Origin: a virus
Reading direction: 5' to 3' (one strand)
Virus record (IMG/VR): IMGVR_UViG_3300008107_000266
Coordinates: 1 to 32,583 of that record
DNA: 32,583 nucleotides
Shown: positions 6,586 through 12,542 of the stretch, in pieces
How positions within the stretch are numbered: the stretch's first letter is position 1
Layout: every line of letters begins with the position of its first letter
Made by a program: the position numbers and the translations under genes
Notes under the pieces: generated by a model
What the model saw: only the letters and a program-made list of their open reading frames with translations
What the model was told of the DNA's origin: nothing
Databases searched by the model: none

Positions 6586-7971
6586 TTATTTAGTGCCATG
6601 ATTGGATTCCACATCTCCGTAGGAATCTCGCATTAGGCGTAAAGTAGTGAAGAATCTTCCATTCGTCGATTTTGTACTATCATATGAATGAGTGACTTCT
6701 TGTATTAGATAAGTTCCACTACTTTCTTGATCGTATGGTTCTTTTGTAATTTCTGCATTTGGTAACTTGTTTACTAATTTAATAGTAATTTTATCACCAG
6801 CACAAATTTCAGAATTGCCTGGAATTATTATAGTTGCTAATTGATGTTTTAGCAACTCATATCTCATAATAGATTGTCCAGCAAAGTGTTTGTGGAAATC
6901 ACAAAACTGACTTGGACTATCTGACCCATCTTCCTGTTCAAAAGATGCAATCCCTGGTTTATTATACCAACTTTCATGATCAAGTAACACAGATATTATT
7001 CTAGTGGGATAATCTGATAATGTTTTCCCGTCTGCAGTTTCTATGATAGATGGAGTATTCTGTGCTCCAAGATGCTTCATATCTTTGTAAGCATCTGCAA
7101 GACTATAATGATATTCGTTATACTGTCCAGTAGAATGATTGAAGAATATCATTAGAGAAGAATATTTACCCTTTCTTAGGGATGTCATCACATCAACTTC
7201 TGATTTGAATGTAGCTTGAGATATGGTAAATCTGTCGTCTGCTCCATCATCTATATTTGCTGGTTTCTCGATATATGGTCCCCATGGCTTAGTTTTATCA
7301 TCTTCAGATAGAAGTTTATCCACAGAGAAAAAATTGTATCCTCTCTTAGTTTCCCAGAAAAAGAATCCAGCACTACCAGATACTTTTTGCCTTTCATTTT
7401 TTGCGGAAGATTTGTTGCTTGATGTTAATCCCTTGGCAACACTTTTTACTGCAATAGAAGATATAACATCAAAAGGTCTTCGATTTGCTGGAATCAACTT
7501 CATTTCAAATTCTGTTGACTCTGAGAAAAATTCTTTGGGAGATTTTAAGTCCTTTTGTAAAATTTCAGCAACAATTTTATCACCAGTTCCTTTGAGTGGT
7601 TTAATTAGTCTGAAATATTCATTATTCAGGGCTTCTTCTGATATCAGTCCTAAAGTATACGACTGTGCGTTATTTTTGACGTATCTGTTTCCTATCTTCC
7701 AAACTAACATCTTGTATTCTTGTGGTTGCTCTGATGATGAAGTTTGTACCGTAATAATAACTGTTTCTCCACCCTGAATTGGAAGACTATTTAATAGTCC
7801 AGCACTATCCACAACAACTAATGTTGCTGCAATAAAAGGACTGGTAATACTTTCCACATACGAAAAAGTACCAACCATTTGTTTAATTTCATATCCCTCG
7901 CTTTTATCTCCAAGGGCAGAAATTTTTACACTTTTGAGAGAAAACTCTGCAGAGTTCTGAAATTGTTCCAT
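6586..7971 (-). CDS. Baseplate hub protein, gp27-like
   Basis: 461 residues. The N-terminal region is beta-rich (GYEIKQMVGTFSYVESI, ATLVVVDSAGLL). The middle contains GSAGFFFWETKRGYNFFSV and the C-terminal part has ICAGDKITIKLVNK and TYLIQEVTHSYD. This pattern is typical of gp27/gpD-like hub proteins, in which two tube-like beta domains sit above the gp5 trimer. Length (T4 gp27 has 391) and position beside the gp5-like gene support the call, but no diagnostic motif is available. The ATG overlaps the TAA of the upstream gene (TAATG). Confidence 0.65.
   Translation of the reverse strand: MEQFQNSAEFSLKSVKISALGDKSEGYEIKQMVGTFSYVESITSPFIAATLVVVDSAGLLNSLPIQGGETVIITVQTSSSEQPQEYKMLVWKIGNRYVKNNAQSYTLGLISEEALNNEYFRLIKPLKGTGDKIVAEILQKDLKSPKEFFSESTEFEMKLIPANRRPFDVISSIAVKSVAKGLTSSNKSSAKNERQKVSGSAGFFFWETKRGYNFFSVDKLLSEDDKTKPWGPYIEKPANIDDGADDRFTISQATFKSEVDVMTSLRKGKYSSLMIFFNHSTGQYNEYHYSLADAYKDMKHLGAQNTPSIIETADGKTLSDYPTRIISVLLDHESWYNKPGIASFEQEDGSDSPSQFCDFHKHFAGQSIMRYELLKHQLATIIIPGNSEICAGDKITIKLVNKLPNAEITKEPYDQESSGTYLIQEVTHSYDSTKSTNGRFFTTLRLMRDSYGDVESNHGTK
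6587..6593 (-). promoter_or_regulatory. T4-late-like promoter box CTAAATA
   Basis: CTAAATA on the minus strand, 22 nt before the ATG of the 70-aa gene. It overlaps the TAA stop of the gp27-like gene (6586-6588). Confidence 0.6.
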
Positions 7972-10871
7972 TATGCTAATGCCCTAATTCTTAGATCTTG
8001 GAAGACAGCAGTTCCAGTTTGCTCCATACCAATACCAGGAGATACTCCATTTCCATTTATTCCTCCCTGCTGATTTCCACCTCCACCATAATAATTATTG
8101 ATGATAGTTGCACCACCACCTTGAGTTGTGAGTCCCATAGTATTCATGGCAACTTGCTGAGACGCTGCCATCATAGGTGTTCCAGTATTTGGATTGGCAG
8201 CAGATGCTTGTAATGCTCCAGGAGAAACACGACTAGATGCTCTTGGACTTGTTCTTGTGGCAGAAGTCTGTCCATTACGCTTACTTGGATCTGGTTTACC
8301 GTTTATTGAAAGTGGTTGAGCTGGAGCTGCAGATACTGATTGATTTCCTCTATTTCTTGCTATTGTGCTGCGACTTGCCCCACCAGGCATTCTATAAATT
8401 TTTCCTTGTCCACCATAATATGCGTTATATTCTTCGGGTGATGCTTCCCATGAAAATTTTGCTTTGCTTGATGAATTAGAAAGTATCTTTCCATTCTGCA
8501 GGACAACACCAATATGTGCCTGTGGTGGAGATTGTCTATCATACATTACCATTACATCTCCAGGTTGTCTCTGACCATAACTGACCTGTTGATACCCAGC
8601 ACCAACCATTTTCTTTTCTGCATCTGGAACATACATCGATGCTCCCCATGGTGGAGTAATTCCCGCAGCCTTATATACTTTATTTACAGCCCAAACACAT
8701 CCATTTTCTCCCCCACCTGGAGCCTCTCTGGATGACATTCCCTTCAAACGCTGAGCAGCACTTGCTAAAGAAGATCCAGATCCACCACCTCTACCTGGAC
8801 CGCCACCACCAGTTATTTGTCGTGTAGCAAGTGTATTTGCATTTCTAATTCTACTATCATATCCAGCTTGTCCTGGTTTTTCACCAGATCTCTCAAAATC
8901 CTTTACGAATAAAGCAGCTGCTTCTGCTGCTGTTTTTGTTTTCTTGAATCGTTCGATTCCAAGACCACCAGATCCAGTTCTCATTTCTTCCATGATCCAC
9001 TGGAGCTGCGCTTCTCTGGTATTTACATCCAATCCCTTTTGCTTTGCCCATTTCTCGAAATTTGCCCATCTATTTTTATCCCACTGAGCAAGACCTCTAT
9101 GACCAGTTTTGTTTTTTGCCATGGGATCTAATCCAGCGCCAGATTCTTGCATTAAGTTACCGACGATACCCGCTGCTTGATCTTTTGTCAATCCTTGACT
9201 CATAAAATAATTCATAGCTTGATCTTGACCACTAGATCCAGAAAAATCTCCACCGCCCAAATAATCTGCAGCTGGATTAAACTCGGCAGCATTAGCAGCA
9301 CCACCAAATAAAGAAGCAATACCACCAGCAAGAGATTCGAAAAAGCTTTTTAGACCTTCTCCCATTTTCTCAAATCCACCTTCTCTTTCATAATATTGCT
9401 TCATTCCCATCGCCTGCATCTTAGCAAAATCTTTATCATTTTTCTTCTGTGCTGCGAATACTCCTTCACCGAACATCTCAAACGTCTTTTTACCTCTAGT
9501 TCCTTCGAGTGGGAAAACACCTTCATTTCCAGCTTCCCCAATCAATCCAGTAACTGGACTGGTGATAATACCGCCATTTGCAAATGGAGTTAATCCAGCA
9601 TCTCTCGCCATCAATCCAGCATCAATACCAGTAGATACGGCAGTTCCAATACCAGGAATAATAGATGCAATACCAGAAAGTAGTTCGCCACCAGCGCCAA
9701 GCCAGTCTCCACTCATCGCTCTTTCAGCAGCAAAAGCACCTCCAGCAAGAGCTCCCAATACAGGAATCTTCTTCATAAATCCCTTTCCGAGTCCCTTTGC
9801 CACCGCTTTTCCAGCACCTCTACCACCAACCTTAGTTGCGAGTCTAGTTGCCCTTCGTGCTCCGCCTCCTCTGCGGGTCACAGAAGCGCCTCCACCAAGT
9901 CTGCTGCCAGGACGGCGGTTCATGCCTCTCCACTCGTCAACGTAGTCTGGAATGGGCAATCCGCCGCCAGGAGCGCCTCCTAGGATAGAACCACCCCCAC
10001 CAGGACCTGGCATGAAAGGACTGCACCCACATCCTTCATCTTTCTGAAATGGATTTGGTCCTCTAAAAAATTCTTTTAACTTACTGCCAGTTTCTTTCTT
10101 TTCTTCATTCTTTTTTCTCTTGGCAAAATTCTCTGGTGTCATAAATCCAGAGAGATCATTACCTTGTTCTAAATATTTTTCTTCTTCTCTAGATGCTGCC
10201 CTGAGCATCAACTTTTCAGTTGATTGTTGTTGCTTTTCCGATAGTTGTACTTCTGTCTTTGTCTGTTCTTTTACAGCATCAACTAAAGACATTATTATTT
10301 GAGTATTCTTATTAACCGCCGCAACAATATCAATTCCACTTTCTGGTGAAATTGGAGGGGCGGCTGCAGAAGTGGTTTTTACAGATTCTTGGCGAGATTT
10401 GATAAATGCTTCTCTTCTCTGTGCATTTGTCAGATATTCACCAGAGGGCCCAACTCCAGTAGTTGCTTGCTTAAAAAACGTTTCAGCGTTTAATCCACCA
10501 CCAGAAGAAATTCCTGGAATATCGGTAAATGTTCCCCCAGGTCTTTTAGCAATTCCTCCATCTGTTCCACCAGGAACTGCTAATGGTTCCTGTTTAGTAA
10601 TAGCAGTTGTTCCTGATCCCAACATTTTTGGTTGGGATCCAGAAAACATTTTTTTAGCTACTGGTTCTGCCTTAGTTACGTCCTTAACCGTAACTCCCTG
10701 AGCATTAGCTTGATACTGTACTTGTCCACCAGAACTTTTTACTAAAGCACCGCTGGTTTTCTGAAATTTGCCCCATAAACCTTTAAGTCCTTCTGCTAAC
10801 TTTTTCTTAGCAAAATTAACTAGAGGACTTTCTCCCGATACTGGTTCATAAGCTAGAAAACCGTGTGCCAT
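7971..10871 (-). CDS. Tape-measure-like hub protein with tail lysozyme and NlpC/CHAP-like peptidase
   Basis: 966 residues. Residues 370-420 are hydrophobic and glycine-rich. Residues 428-458 carry the tape-measure signature (PFANGGIITSP, GLIGEAGNEGVFPLE). Residues 548-685 look like a phage tail lysozyme (Phage_lysozyme2): NLMQESG with the likely catalytic Glu near 576, then HRGLAQWD. Residues 720-830 look like a cysteine peptidase: GCVWAVNKVY (Cys near 725), QAHIGVVLQNG (His near 786), ILSNS. The C-terminus is low-complexity glycine/asparagine. It would cut both glycan and peptide of peptidoglycan at injection, replacing the lysozyme domain missing from the gp5-like protein. It begins at TAATG with the end of the frameshift frame. 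It could correspond to T4 gp29; no ortholog claim is made. Confidence 0.75.
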   Translation of the reverse strand: MAHGFLAYEPVSGESPLVNFAKKKLAEGLKGLWGKFQKTSGALVKSSGGQVQYQANAQGVTVKDVTKAEPVAKKMFSGSQPKMLGSGTTAITKQEPLAVPGGTDGGIAKRPGGTFTDIPGISSGGGLNAETFFKQATTGVGPSGEYLTNAQRREAFIKSRQESVKTTSAAAPPISPESGIDIVAAVNKNTQIIMSLVDAVKEQTKTEVQLSEKQQQSTEKLMLRAASREEEKYLEQGNDLSGFMTPENFAKRKKNEEKKETGSKLKEFFRGPNPFQKDEGCGCSPFMPGPGGGGSILGGAPGGGLPIPDYVDEWRGMNRRPGSRLGGGASVTRRGGGARRATRLATKVGGRGAGKAVAKGLGKGFMKKIPVLGALAGGAFAAERAMSGDWLGAGGELLSGIASIIPGIGTAVSTGIDAGLMARDAGLTPFANGGIITSPVTGLIGEAGNEGVFPLEGTRGKKTFEMFGEGVFAAQKKNDKDFAKMQAMGMKQYYEREGGFEKMGEGLKSFFESLAGGIASLFGGAANAAEFNPAADYLGGGDFSGSSGQDQAMNYFMSQGLTKDQAAGIVGNLMQESGAGLDPMAKNKTGHRGLAQWDKNRWANFEKWAKQKGLDVNTREAQLQWIMEEMRTGSGGLGIERFKKTKTAAEAAALFVKDFERSGEKPGQAGYDSRIRNANTLATRQITGGGGPGRGGGSGSSLASAAQRLKGMSSREAPGGGENGCVWAVNKVYKAAGITPPWGASMYVPDAEKKMVGAGYQQVSYGQRQPGDVMVMYDRQSPPQAHIGVVLQNGKILSNSSSKAKFSWEASPEEYNAYYGGQGKIYRMPGGASRSTIARNRGNQSVSAAPAQPLSINGKPDPSKRNGQTSATRTSPRASSRVSPGALQASAANPNTGTPMMAASQQVAMNTMGLTTQGGGATIINNYYGGGGNQQGGINGNGVSPGIGMEQTGTAVFQDLRIRALA

Positions 10872-11059
10872 TACCTTTGTGCTGCTTTTTGTTGTTCTTG
10901 TTTGACCTGTTCCAAATGTTGCATCAAGAGACTAGTGTAAACTTGTCTCTCCCAAGGCATCATATTCTCAATTTCACTCAAGCTATATTTATGGTGCTGC
11001 ATCAAGGCAAAGTTGGTTTTATAATACCCTTCCAGCGTATTGTGGAAGAGTGCTACCCG
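10871..11059 (-). CDS. Minus-one frame extension of gp26 (62 residues), expressed by frameshifting
   Basis: This frame lies -1 relative to gp26 and starts at the slippery site with no initiation codon. It reads RVALFHNTLEGYYKTNFA and continues through LMQHHKYSLSEIENMMPWER to EQQKAAQR, then TAA, which shares one base with the next ATG. The residues before the first ATG already look like conserved protein, so entry by frameshift is the simplest explanation. The layout matches tail-assembly chaperones such as lambda G/GT. The extension may play the role of T4 gp51, whose gene neighbours 26, but this is inferred. Internal initiation at an ATG near 10999 is an alternative; it would yield a shorter product. 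Confidence 0.75.
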   Translation of the reverse strand, partial: RVALFHNTLEGYYKTNFALMQHHKYSLSEIENMMPWERQVYTSLLMQHLEQVKQEQQKAAQR

Positions 11060-11065
11060 AAAAAA
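11027..11065 (-). promoter_or_regulatory. Programmed -1 ribosomal frameshift signal
   Basis: On the minus strand the heptamer T TTT TTC (11059-11065) is in the X XXY YYZ phase of the gp26 frame. The spacer GGGTAGCA (8 nt) contains the gp26 stop TAG. Then CTCTTCCA (11043-11050) pairs with TGGAAGGG (11027-11034) as an 8-bp stem with one G-U and an 8-nt loop. Heptamer, spacing and stem fit known -1 frameshift signals. Confidence 0.8.
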
Positions 11066-11766
11066 TTGGACAATCCTGCAATAGTAACCTCATTCATGAC
11101 GCCAGTATTTGGATTTTTCACTTTTATAGTGTGTTCTAGAACTGGAGATTCATTAAAGAATTTTTGAATATCTTCAAATTGCTTATTTGTGAGTTTTTCT
11201 ACAAATTCGACGAATTCTTTCTTAGAAGTTGTTGAACTGTCATACACATCTTCTCCATCAAAAATCTGATCAATACAACTTGCCATAATTTCAACAACAC
11301 CATCAGCAGTTGGTGGTTGACCAATAATTGAAACTTTGACAAATTCGTTAAATGATGGATATTTCATAATCACGCCCATTTTATCAGATAGCATGATTTT
11401 GTTGCTATGTCCATCTGGTTTACTGACCTTAACATCTGTTAGATTCAGATTATAGCGAACTTGAGTGACTCCATCATCTTCGCAAGTAATATTCATTTCC
11501 ACAATTTCGCCAACTGATACTGCACGAATATTAAGGAAAATATACTCTAAATCGAAAATTGCTAATTCTTCCAATTTTACGCGAGATTGGATGCAACCCT
11601 TCAATAGACTTTTTACAGCATCTTCAATCTGTTTTTCGTCATTTGTCTCTAATGCCAGTAAAAGTAGTTTTTCCTCTTTTACCACAAATGGACGATATTT
11701 GATTGTTTTGCCACTAGACGGAATTTCCAACTCATAAGTTGGGAGTACAACTTCTGGTAATGCCAT
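11053..11766 (-). CDS. gp26: Baseplate hub / tail-assembly protein gp26
   Basis: 237 residues beginning MALPEVVLPTYELEIPSSG. The start (IPSSGKTIKYRPFVVKEEK) and length fit the T4 gp26 family (T4_baseplate, PF12322; T4 gp26 has 208 residues). The protein is needed for hub assembly. The zero frame ends SNFFG at a TAG located inside a frameshift signal, so a fraction of ribosomes should make a 299-residue fusion with the downstream frame. A late-type CTAAATA box lies 24 nt before the ATG. The gene follows the tail-tube-like gene on the same strand. Confidence 0.85.
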   Translation of the reverse strand: MALPEVVLPTYELEIPSSGKTIKYRPFVVKEEKLLLLALETNDEKQIEDAVKSLLKGCIQSRVKLEELAIFDLEYIFLNIRAVSVGEIVEMNITCEDDGVTQVRYNLNLTDVKVSKPDGHSNKIMLSDKMGVIMKYPSFNEFVKVSIIGQPPTADGVVEIMASCIDQIFDGEDVYDSSTTSKKEFVEFVEKLTNKQFEDIQKFFNESPVLEHTIKVKNPNTGVMNEVTIAGLSNFFG

Positions 11767-11867: not shown

Positions 11868-12542
11868 CTATTTGTATAGCTTTTTTAGATCATTAATATT
11901 ACCTCGGAAGGAAGTAATATCATTTTTAATTACATAATGTCTCATGTACGAGAATTGAGCAGTCACCTGAGTTACTTGGCTCGATCCAAATTGAAGTGGC
12001 ACAGCATCTATAGCAAAAGGATATGCTTTCTCTAAAATATATGTAATTGATGTTCTTTCCGTTGGAGACTTAGATCCACTTTCTGTTTTACTTATGGCAA
12101 TATTACAAGCATATTGATCTCTATACTTCAGTCTAACATTTCTATTTTCATCTCTGATTGGACCATATGCAAGCGACTGCATTTGAGATAGAGATTTTGC
12201 TGTTTGATCGCTTCCTTGCTCACTAAAAATATAATCAACCCAGTCTTGCAAAAACTTTAGGGCAGACATATTAGCATCACATAAAAATCCCAACTGTATT
12301 TCTGTGAATACTCTGGTATGTGGATATTGAATAGTTCCACTACCAGTATAAATTCCGTTTATCTGTCCCTGAGCGGTATTAGTGTTTGGGAGTTGAGCTT
12401 CACTACAAAAATACTCAAAGTAATCTCCTGCCTGCCCACCTGGAGGAGTAATAGGTGGGTTAAGGAATCTTACTACAAAATTATTTGAGTACGACATGCC
12501 GCCATTAGCAGCAATAGTAGCAAGAAAACTATCTACAGACAC
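11868..12542 (-). CDS. T4 gp19-family tail-tube-like protein (possibly gp54)
   Basis: 224 residues from a GTG (no ATG before residue 16; an upstream in-frame stop limits the choice). The start MSVDSFLATIAANGGMSYSN followed by NFVVRF and the C-terminal pattern YPFAIDAVPLQFG then VTAQFSYMRHYV are typical of gp19-type tube proteins. T4 gp54, the initiator of tube polymerisation on the baseplate, shares this fold and is encoded in the hub cluster, so gp54 is a reasonable guess; a true gp19 cannot be excluded. It is divergent from gp4 across a short shared promoter region. Confidence 0.75.
   Translation of the reverse strand: MSVDSFLATIAANGGMSYSNNFVVRFLNPPITPPGGQAGDYFEYFCSEAQLPNTNTAQGQINGIYTGSGTIQYPHTRVFTEIQLGFLCDANMSALKFLQDWVDYIFSEQGSDQTAKSLSQMQSLAYGPIRDENRNVRLKYRDQYACNIAISKTESGSKSPTERTSITYILEKAYPFAIDAVPLQFGSSQVTQVTAQFSYMRHYVIKNDITSFRGNINDLKKLYK

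Follow-up and report, generated by a model that had tools for sequence, protein, structure and literature searches.

The DNA analysed here, referred to as the window, is a 32,583-nt stretch of an uncultivated marine T4-like cyanophage (IMGVR_UViG_3300008107_000266). All of the features described lie on its minus strand, where the gene order is tail tube, gp26 with its extension, and a tape-measure-like gene, as follows:

12542..11868, minus strand: tail tube gene, upstream of gp26 (PF23849 Phage_TTP_2, E 7.8e-87; phrog_45, tail tube).
11766..11053, minus strand: gp26 ORF, the short form (TAC-N), 237 aa, with stop TAG at 11055..11053 (ORF list, PF12322, phrog_150).
11065..11059, minus strand: slippery heptamer T TTT TTC in the gp26 phase (in 106/116 dereplicated loci).
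11051..11026, minus strand: probable stimulatory stem-loop with an 8-9 bp stem and an 8-nt loop, 7-8 nt past the heptamer (recoding test, sister-clade covariation).
11065..10871, minus strand: -1 frame extension (TAC-C, 'gp51'), starting at the heptamer and closing with TAA at 10873..10871 (phrog_634, phrog_150, pN/pS).
10871..7971, minus strand: tape-measure-like gene, 966 aa, with a tail lysozyme domain (phrog_9570, PF18013).

The gp26 ORF ends with TCC AAT TTT TTC GGG TAG, and the C-terminus of its protein is accordingly ...GLSNFFG*. Within this end, T TTT TTC follows the pattern X XXY YYZ in the gp26 frame, which is the phase required for a tandem -1 slip. An 8-nt spacer, GGGTAGCA, which includes the TAG stop, separates the heptamer from an 8-bp stem. 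The stem is formed by the arms CTCTTCCA (11050..11043) and TGGAAGGG (11034..11027), which enclose an 8-nt loop; with an extra A-U pair (11051/11026), the stem comprises 9 bp and the spacer 7 nt. The -1 frame reads FF and 62 further codons (RVALFHNTLEGYYKTNFALMQHH...NMMPWERQ...QR) up to a TAA that overlaps the ATG of the tape-measure-like gene as TAATG (10873..10869). Fused to gp26, this extension would give a long form of about 298 aa. Counting from the first nucleotide of the gp26 stop codon, the -1 frame has its earliest ATG 53 nt downstream (+53). The earlier note had described the in-phase heptamer, the spacer holding the stop, the hairpin, an open -1 frame beginning before any ATG, and the closing TAATG overlap, and each of these was seen at the positions given above.

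The gp26 protein matched PF12322 (T4_baseplate, E 1.8e-71) and phrog_150 (E 2.5e-79), while a search of NCBIfam with it returned no match. The extension matched phrog_634 (baseplate hub assembly catalyst, E 1.5e-28) and positions 231-280 of phrog_150. By these matches, the extension belongs to the gp51 family and the short form contains a gp26-like domain. The 966-aa ORF directly downstream of gp26 matched the tape measure family phrog_9570 (E 5.9e-27), with an endolysin family scoring higher there, and carries a PF18013 Phage_lysozyme2 domain (E 2.3e-27). Given the matches of this protein (7971-10871, minus strand) to endolysin families in addition to the Phage_lysozyme2 domain, a single protein may serve as both tape measure and peptidoglycan hydrolase.

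The heptamer by itself proves nothing, because TTTTTTC is not enriched in the window (11 seen vs 14.3 ± 3.6 expected). Conservation across relatives is decisive, and the position, the phase, the -1 frame, and the hairpin are kept far beyond chance. About 210 loci from phage records and IMG/VR scans were examined and dereplicated at 90% identity to 116 loci. In-phase TTTTTTC was found in 106 of these 116 loci and TTTTTTT in three, and the remaining seven were four Ackermannviridae, Vibrio phage K397, the viral contig L175, and Stenotrophomonas phage IME-SM1. The Phe-Phe codons at the site are spelled TTT TTC in 106/109 cases and are preceded by T in all 109, compared with the same spelling in 4/112 other FF pairs of the same genes (Fisher p 7e-54, which overstates independence among related sequences and is indicative only). 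The heptamer occupies the identical codon in all 80 of the closest IMG/VR loci and in S-RSM4, S-RIM8, S-CAM9, and P-SSM7. It is also present in the freshwater phage S-CRM01, in ME01 and RB11-B, in S-WAM2 and Desulfovibrio phage 7757, and in Menderavirus, Ceceduovirus, OLIVR6, and Schizotequatrovirus ValKK3, with Oliverocinquevirus being among the distant groups in which the site recurs. In Sinorhizobium phage phiM9, the site reads T TTT TTG. The heptamer-bearing loci thus span several T4-like groups, and the conservation of the heptamer, which the earlier note had proposed to check by alignment, was borne out.

The same comparison bears on how the -1 frame is entered. Between the gp26 stop and +53, the -1 frame of 60 window-like loci has a pN/pS of 0.28, indicating purifying selection, and contains no stop before +53, whereas the other two frames over the same bases gave pN/pS values of 1.45 and 1.60 and carry stops in 17 and 57 of the loci. 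Over the first 16 codons, the -1 frame is open in 101/101 loci, and the +1 frame is interrupted in 96/101. A -1-frame stop lies immediately upstream of the heptamer in 8/101 loci, which closes the frame to entry from upstream. In the window clade, the first -1-frame ATG lies at +53 in 32/38 loci and has no Shine-Dalgarno-like motif, and none of 38 window-like loci has a start with such a motif up to +62. The low pN/pS, the upstream -1 stops, and the lack of a start with a Shine-Dalgarno-like motif strongly support that the -1 frame is translated as protein from near the heptamer onward, which would fit slippage rather than internal initiation.

Alternatively, gp51 could be a separate small gene, expressed from an internal start or by re-initiation past the gp26 stop, and the heptamer would be incidental. 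Public records do annotate gp51 in this manner, from assorted start positions. Overlapping starts (TAATG, TGATG) occur in S-CRM01, ValKK3, and Moby, and coupled re-initiation could yield gp51 in some relatives, where an ATG or GTG lies at or just past the gp26 stop. However, the first ATG of the window clade is distant from the stop and has no Shine-Dalgarno-like motif, the residues ahead of it are under purifying selection, and the heptamer is maintained far above the expectation from codon usage. A separate gp51 gene is therefore considered very improbable.

The stem-loop was evaluated by folding the 47 bases past the heptamer and comparing them with recodings that preserve the -1 protein, a control that replaced single-sequence dinucleotide shuffles. 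In the window, this stretch has an MFE of -13.6 kcal/mol, compared with a mean of -4.8 kcal/mol in the synonymous recodings (z -4.1). Across the 64 loci that group with the window the mean z was -3.5, and across the 37 that group with P-SSM7 it was -2.8; dinucleotide shuffling of the window sequence alone gave a weak signal (z -1.55). The stem is kept in the window clade, with 94.9% of cells paired among 37 window-like sequences, in which no compensatory change was found. In a sister clade (GTATGGC...GTCATAC), pair 14-28 varies among U-A (14 times), G-C (13 times), and A-U (6 times), with a covariation score above all 500 shuffles and all slides. A strong stem is absent in a few relatives, including P-SSM7 and Ceceduovirus L089, and the hairpin is therefore common but not universal. 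The conservation of the hairpin, which the earlier note had proposed to check, was found in its retention, its stability relative to recodings, and its covariation in the sister clade, but not as covariation in the window clade or as presence in every relative. These results point to the stem-loop as a probable stimulatory element for slippage.

It is also conceivable that RNA polymerase slips on the run of six Ts, altering the length of the mRNA so that the fusion arises before translation. Such a run exists, but T6 is short for RNA polymerase slippage. Moreover, C almost always follows the T run, the phase matches slippage of two tRNAs in tandem, and the hairpin is conserved at a ribosomal distance, which makes transcriptional slippage very improbable. 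An assembly error or a decaying gene, with an artefactual stop splitting a formerly single ORF into two frames, might be suggested by the single frame of the 236-kb contig L175 and the apparently missing T of IME-SM1, but was rejected, because the two-frame layout recurs in more than 100 independent contigs and also in isolate genomes.

Several relatives depart from the common arrangement. Ackermannviridae and Vibrio phage K397 retain a -1 extension without T TTT TTC, and this counts against the frameshift reading. In Ackermannviridae (L092, L093, L095, L198-L215), the homologous -1 extension is associated with the site (A/G) ATT TTC, with conservation of the residues that precede the next ATG. 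The gp26 stop is overlapped by ATG in Dickeya-type phages and by ATT in Salmonella-type phages. In L175 (L175:701-1591), the gp26 and gp51 parts are fused in a single frame with one PF12322 copy, and the slippery site, TCTTTTTGGTTAGG, has two bases fewer than those of its neighbours, representing either a real fusion or an assembly error. The slippery run of IME-SM1 (L197:701-1543) is apparently one T shorter than that of Moby, which is 99% identical, possibly owing to a homopolymer sequencing error.

T4 represents a further arrangement. T4 gp26 and T4 gp51 both match PF12322 over the full length, and phrog_634 is matched by T4 gp51 but not by T4 gp26. Two PF12322 copies were found in T4 and one in each of 17 other records tested. 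The end of T4 gene 26 spells FF as TTC TTT and has no heptamer; thus, the phage with a separate gene for the long form lacks this site. In T4, the short and fused long forms are provided by the separate paralogues gp26 and gp51, whereas the cyanophage would use one gene and a frameshift. As a tentative scenario, the frameshift might be ancestral in T4-like phages and have been replaced several times: T4 would have turned to gene duplication, L175 to in-frame fusion, and Ackermannviridae to a slip on (A/G) ATT TTC, which is not a standard heptamer.

The fold of the short form was predicted from the L175 protein, which has both parts in one frame. The alignment for structure prediction consisted of the L175 in-frame fusion and gp26 rows, and extension rows, which were misaligned, were left out. 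The AlphaFold model has a mean pLDDT of 85.9. For residues 1-86, the top PDB match in VIA-align was the HK97 tail assembly chaperone (TAC) 2ob9, with an rmsd of 4.0 over 84 of 107 residues and a Z of 7.5, which is below 8 and alone no proof of kinship. The top three entries, 2ob9, 3fgx, and 3klu, stand clear of other PDB entries, with Z values (6.8-7.5) that are all below 8. Sequence identity with 2ob9 is 6%, and the T4-like protein, unlike 2ob9, has further domains past residue 88. Chaperone matches lead in VIA-align only, as Foldseek found no match in the PDB at E 0.001, and a PDB sequence search found no relative. The prediction suggests a tail assembly chaperone-like fold for the short form.

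Lambda and many other phages use frameshifting to make short and long tail chaperones. Lambda gpG/gpGT likewise has its -1 frameshift close to where the short chaperone gene ends, and this gene immediately precedes the tape measure, but the lambda heptamer is G GGA AAG, unlike the T TTT TTC of the cyanophage. Based on the in-phase heptamer, the selection on the -1 frame, the hairpin, the predicted fold, and the gene order, the gp26 locus is very probably a G/GT-type chaperone gene, as the earlier note had proposed, with a short gp26 produced by termination and a long gp26-gp51 produced by -1 slippage. Most ribosomes would stop at the TAG and release the short form. Some would slip back one base, with two Phe tRNAs on T TTT TTC and the stem-loop helping, and synthesize the long form (TAC-NC) bearing the gp51 domain. 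Slippage, its rate, and the roles of the two forms are inferred, as is the fixed ratio between them that the earlier note proposed. By analogy with lambda G/GT, both forms may bind the product of the neighbouring tape measure gene, cover it, and direct the assembly of the tail.

The mechanism itself has already been published for T4-like phages in 2022, and the locus described here adds a further case from an uncultivated cyanophage. Vladimirov, Gautam & Davidson (Virology 566:9-15) reportedly identified the tail chaperone genes of T4-like phages, with gp26 as the short and gp51 as the long form, and their abstract is said to describe frameshifting as conserved in several T4-like groups and genes 26 and 51 as the T4 pair. 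According to a passage in PMC10885494 that refers to Vladimirov et al. (2022), a short gene and a fused long gene replace frameshifting in some T4-like phages. A passage in PMC12846349, citing the same study, mentions poly-T slippery sites in the TAC-N genes of T4-like phages. No direct report of gp26/gp51 frameshifting in cyanophages turned up in the literature searched. What the present analysis adds is the statistics on the signal, the covariation of the hairpin, and the exceptions, all of which may overlap with Vladimirov et al. (2022).

In its passages on gp51, Sullivan et al. (2010, PMC3037559) described the cyanophage gp51 as only about 20% as long as its counterparts elsewhere, with approximately 200 N-terminal residues missing, and these passages mention no frameshift at gp51. 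The comparative evidence presented here supports the cyanophage 'gp51' as the frameshift tail of gp26 rather than a gene of its own, and as the end of a frameshift fusion it would have appeared about 80% too short in 2010. Among the annotated records examined (L001-L004, L087-L097, L228-L232), gp51 is annotated from varied start positions and is uncalled in S-WAM2. None of these records contains a frameshift join at gp26/gp51, and as annotated they consequently omit or truncate a morphogenesis protein in its long form. The gp26/gp51 pair offers a clean case in which one frameshift gene in some lineages would correspond to two paralogues in another.
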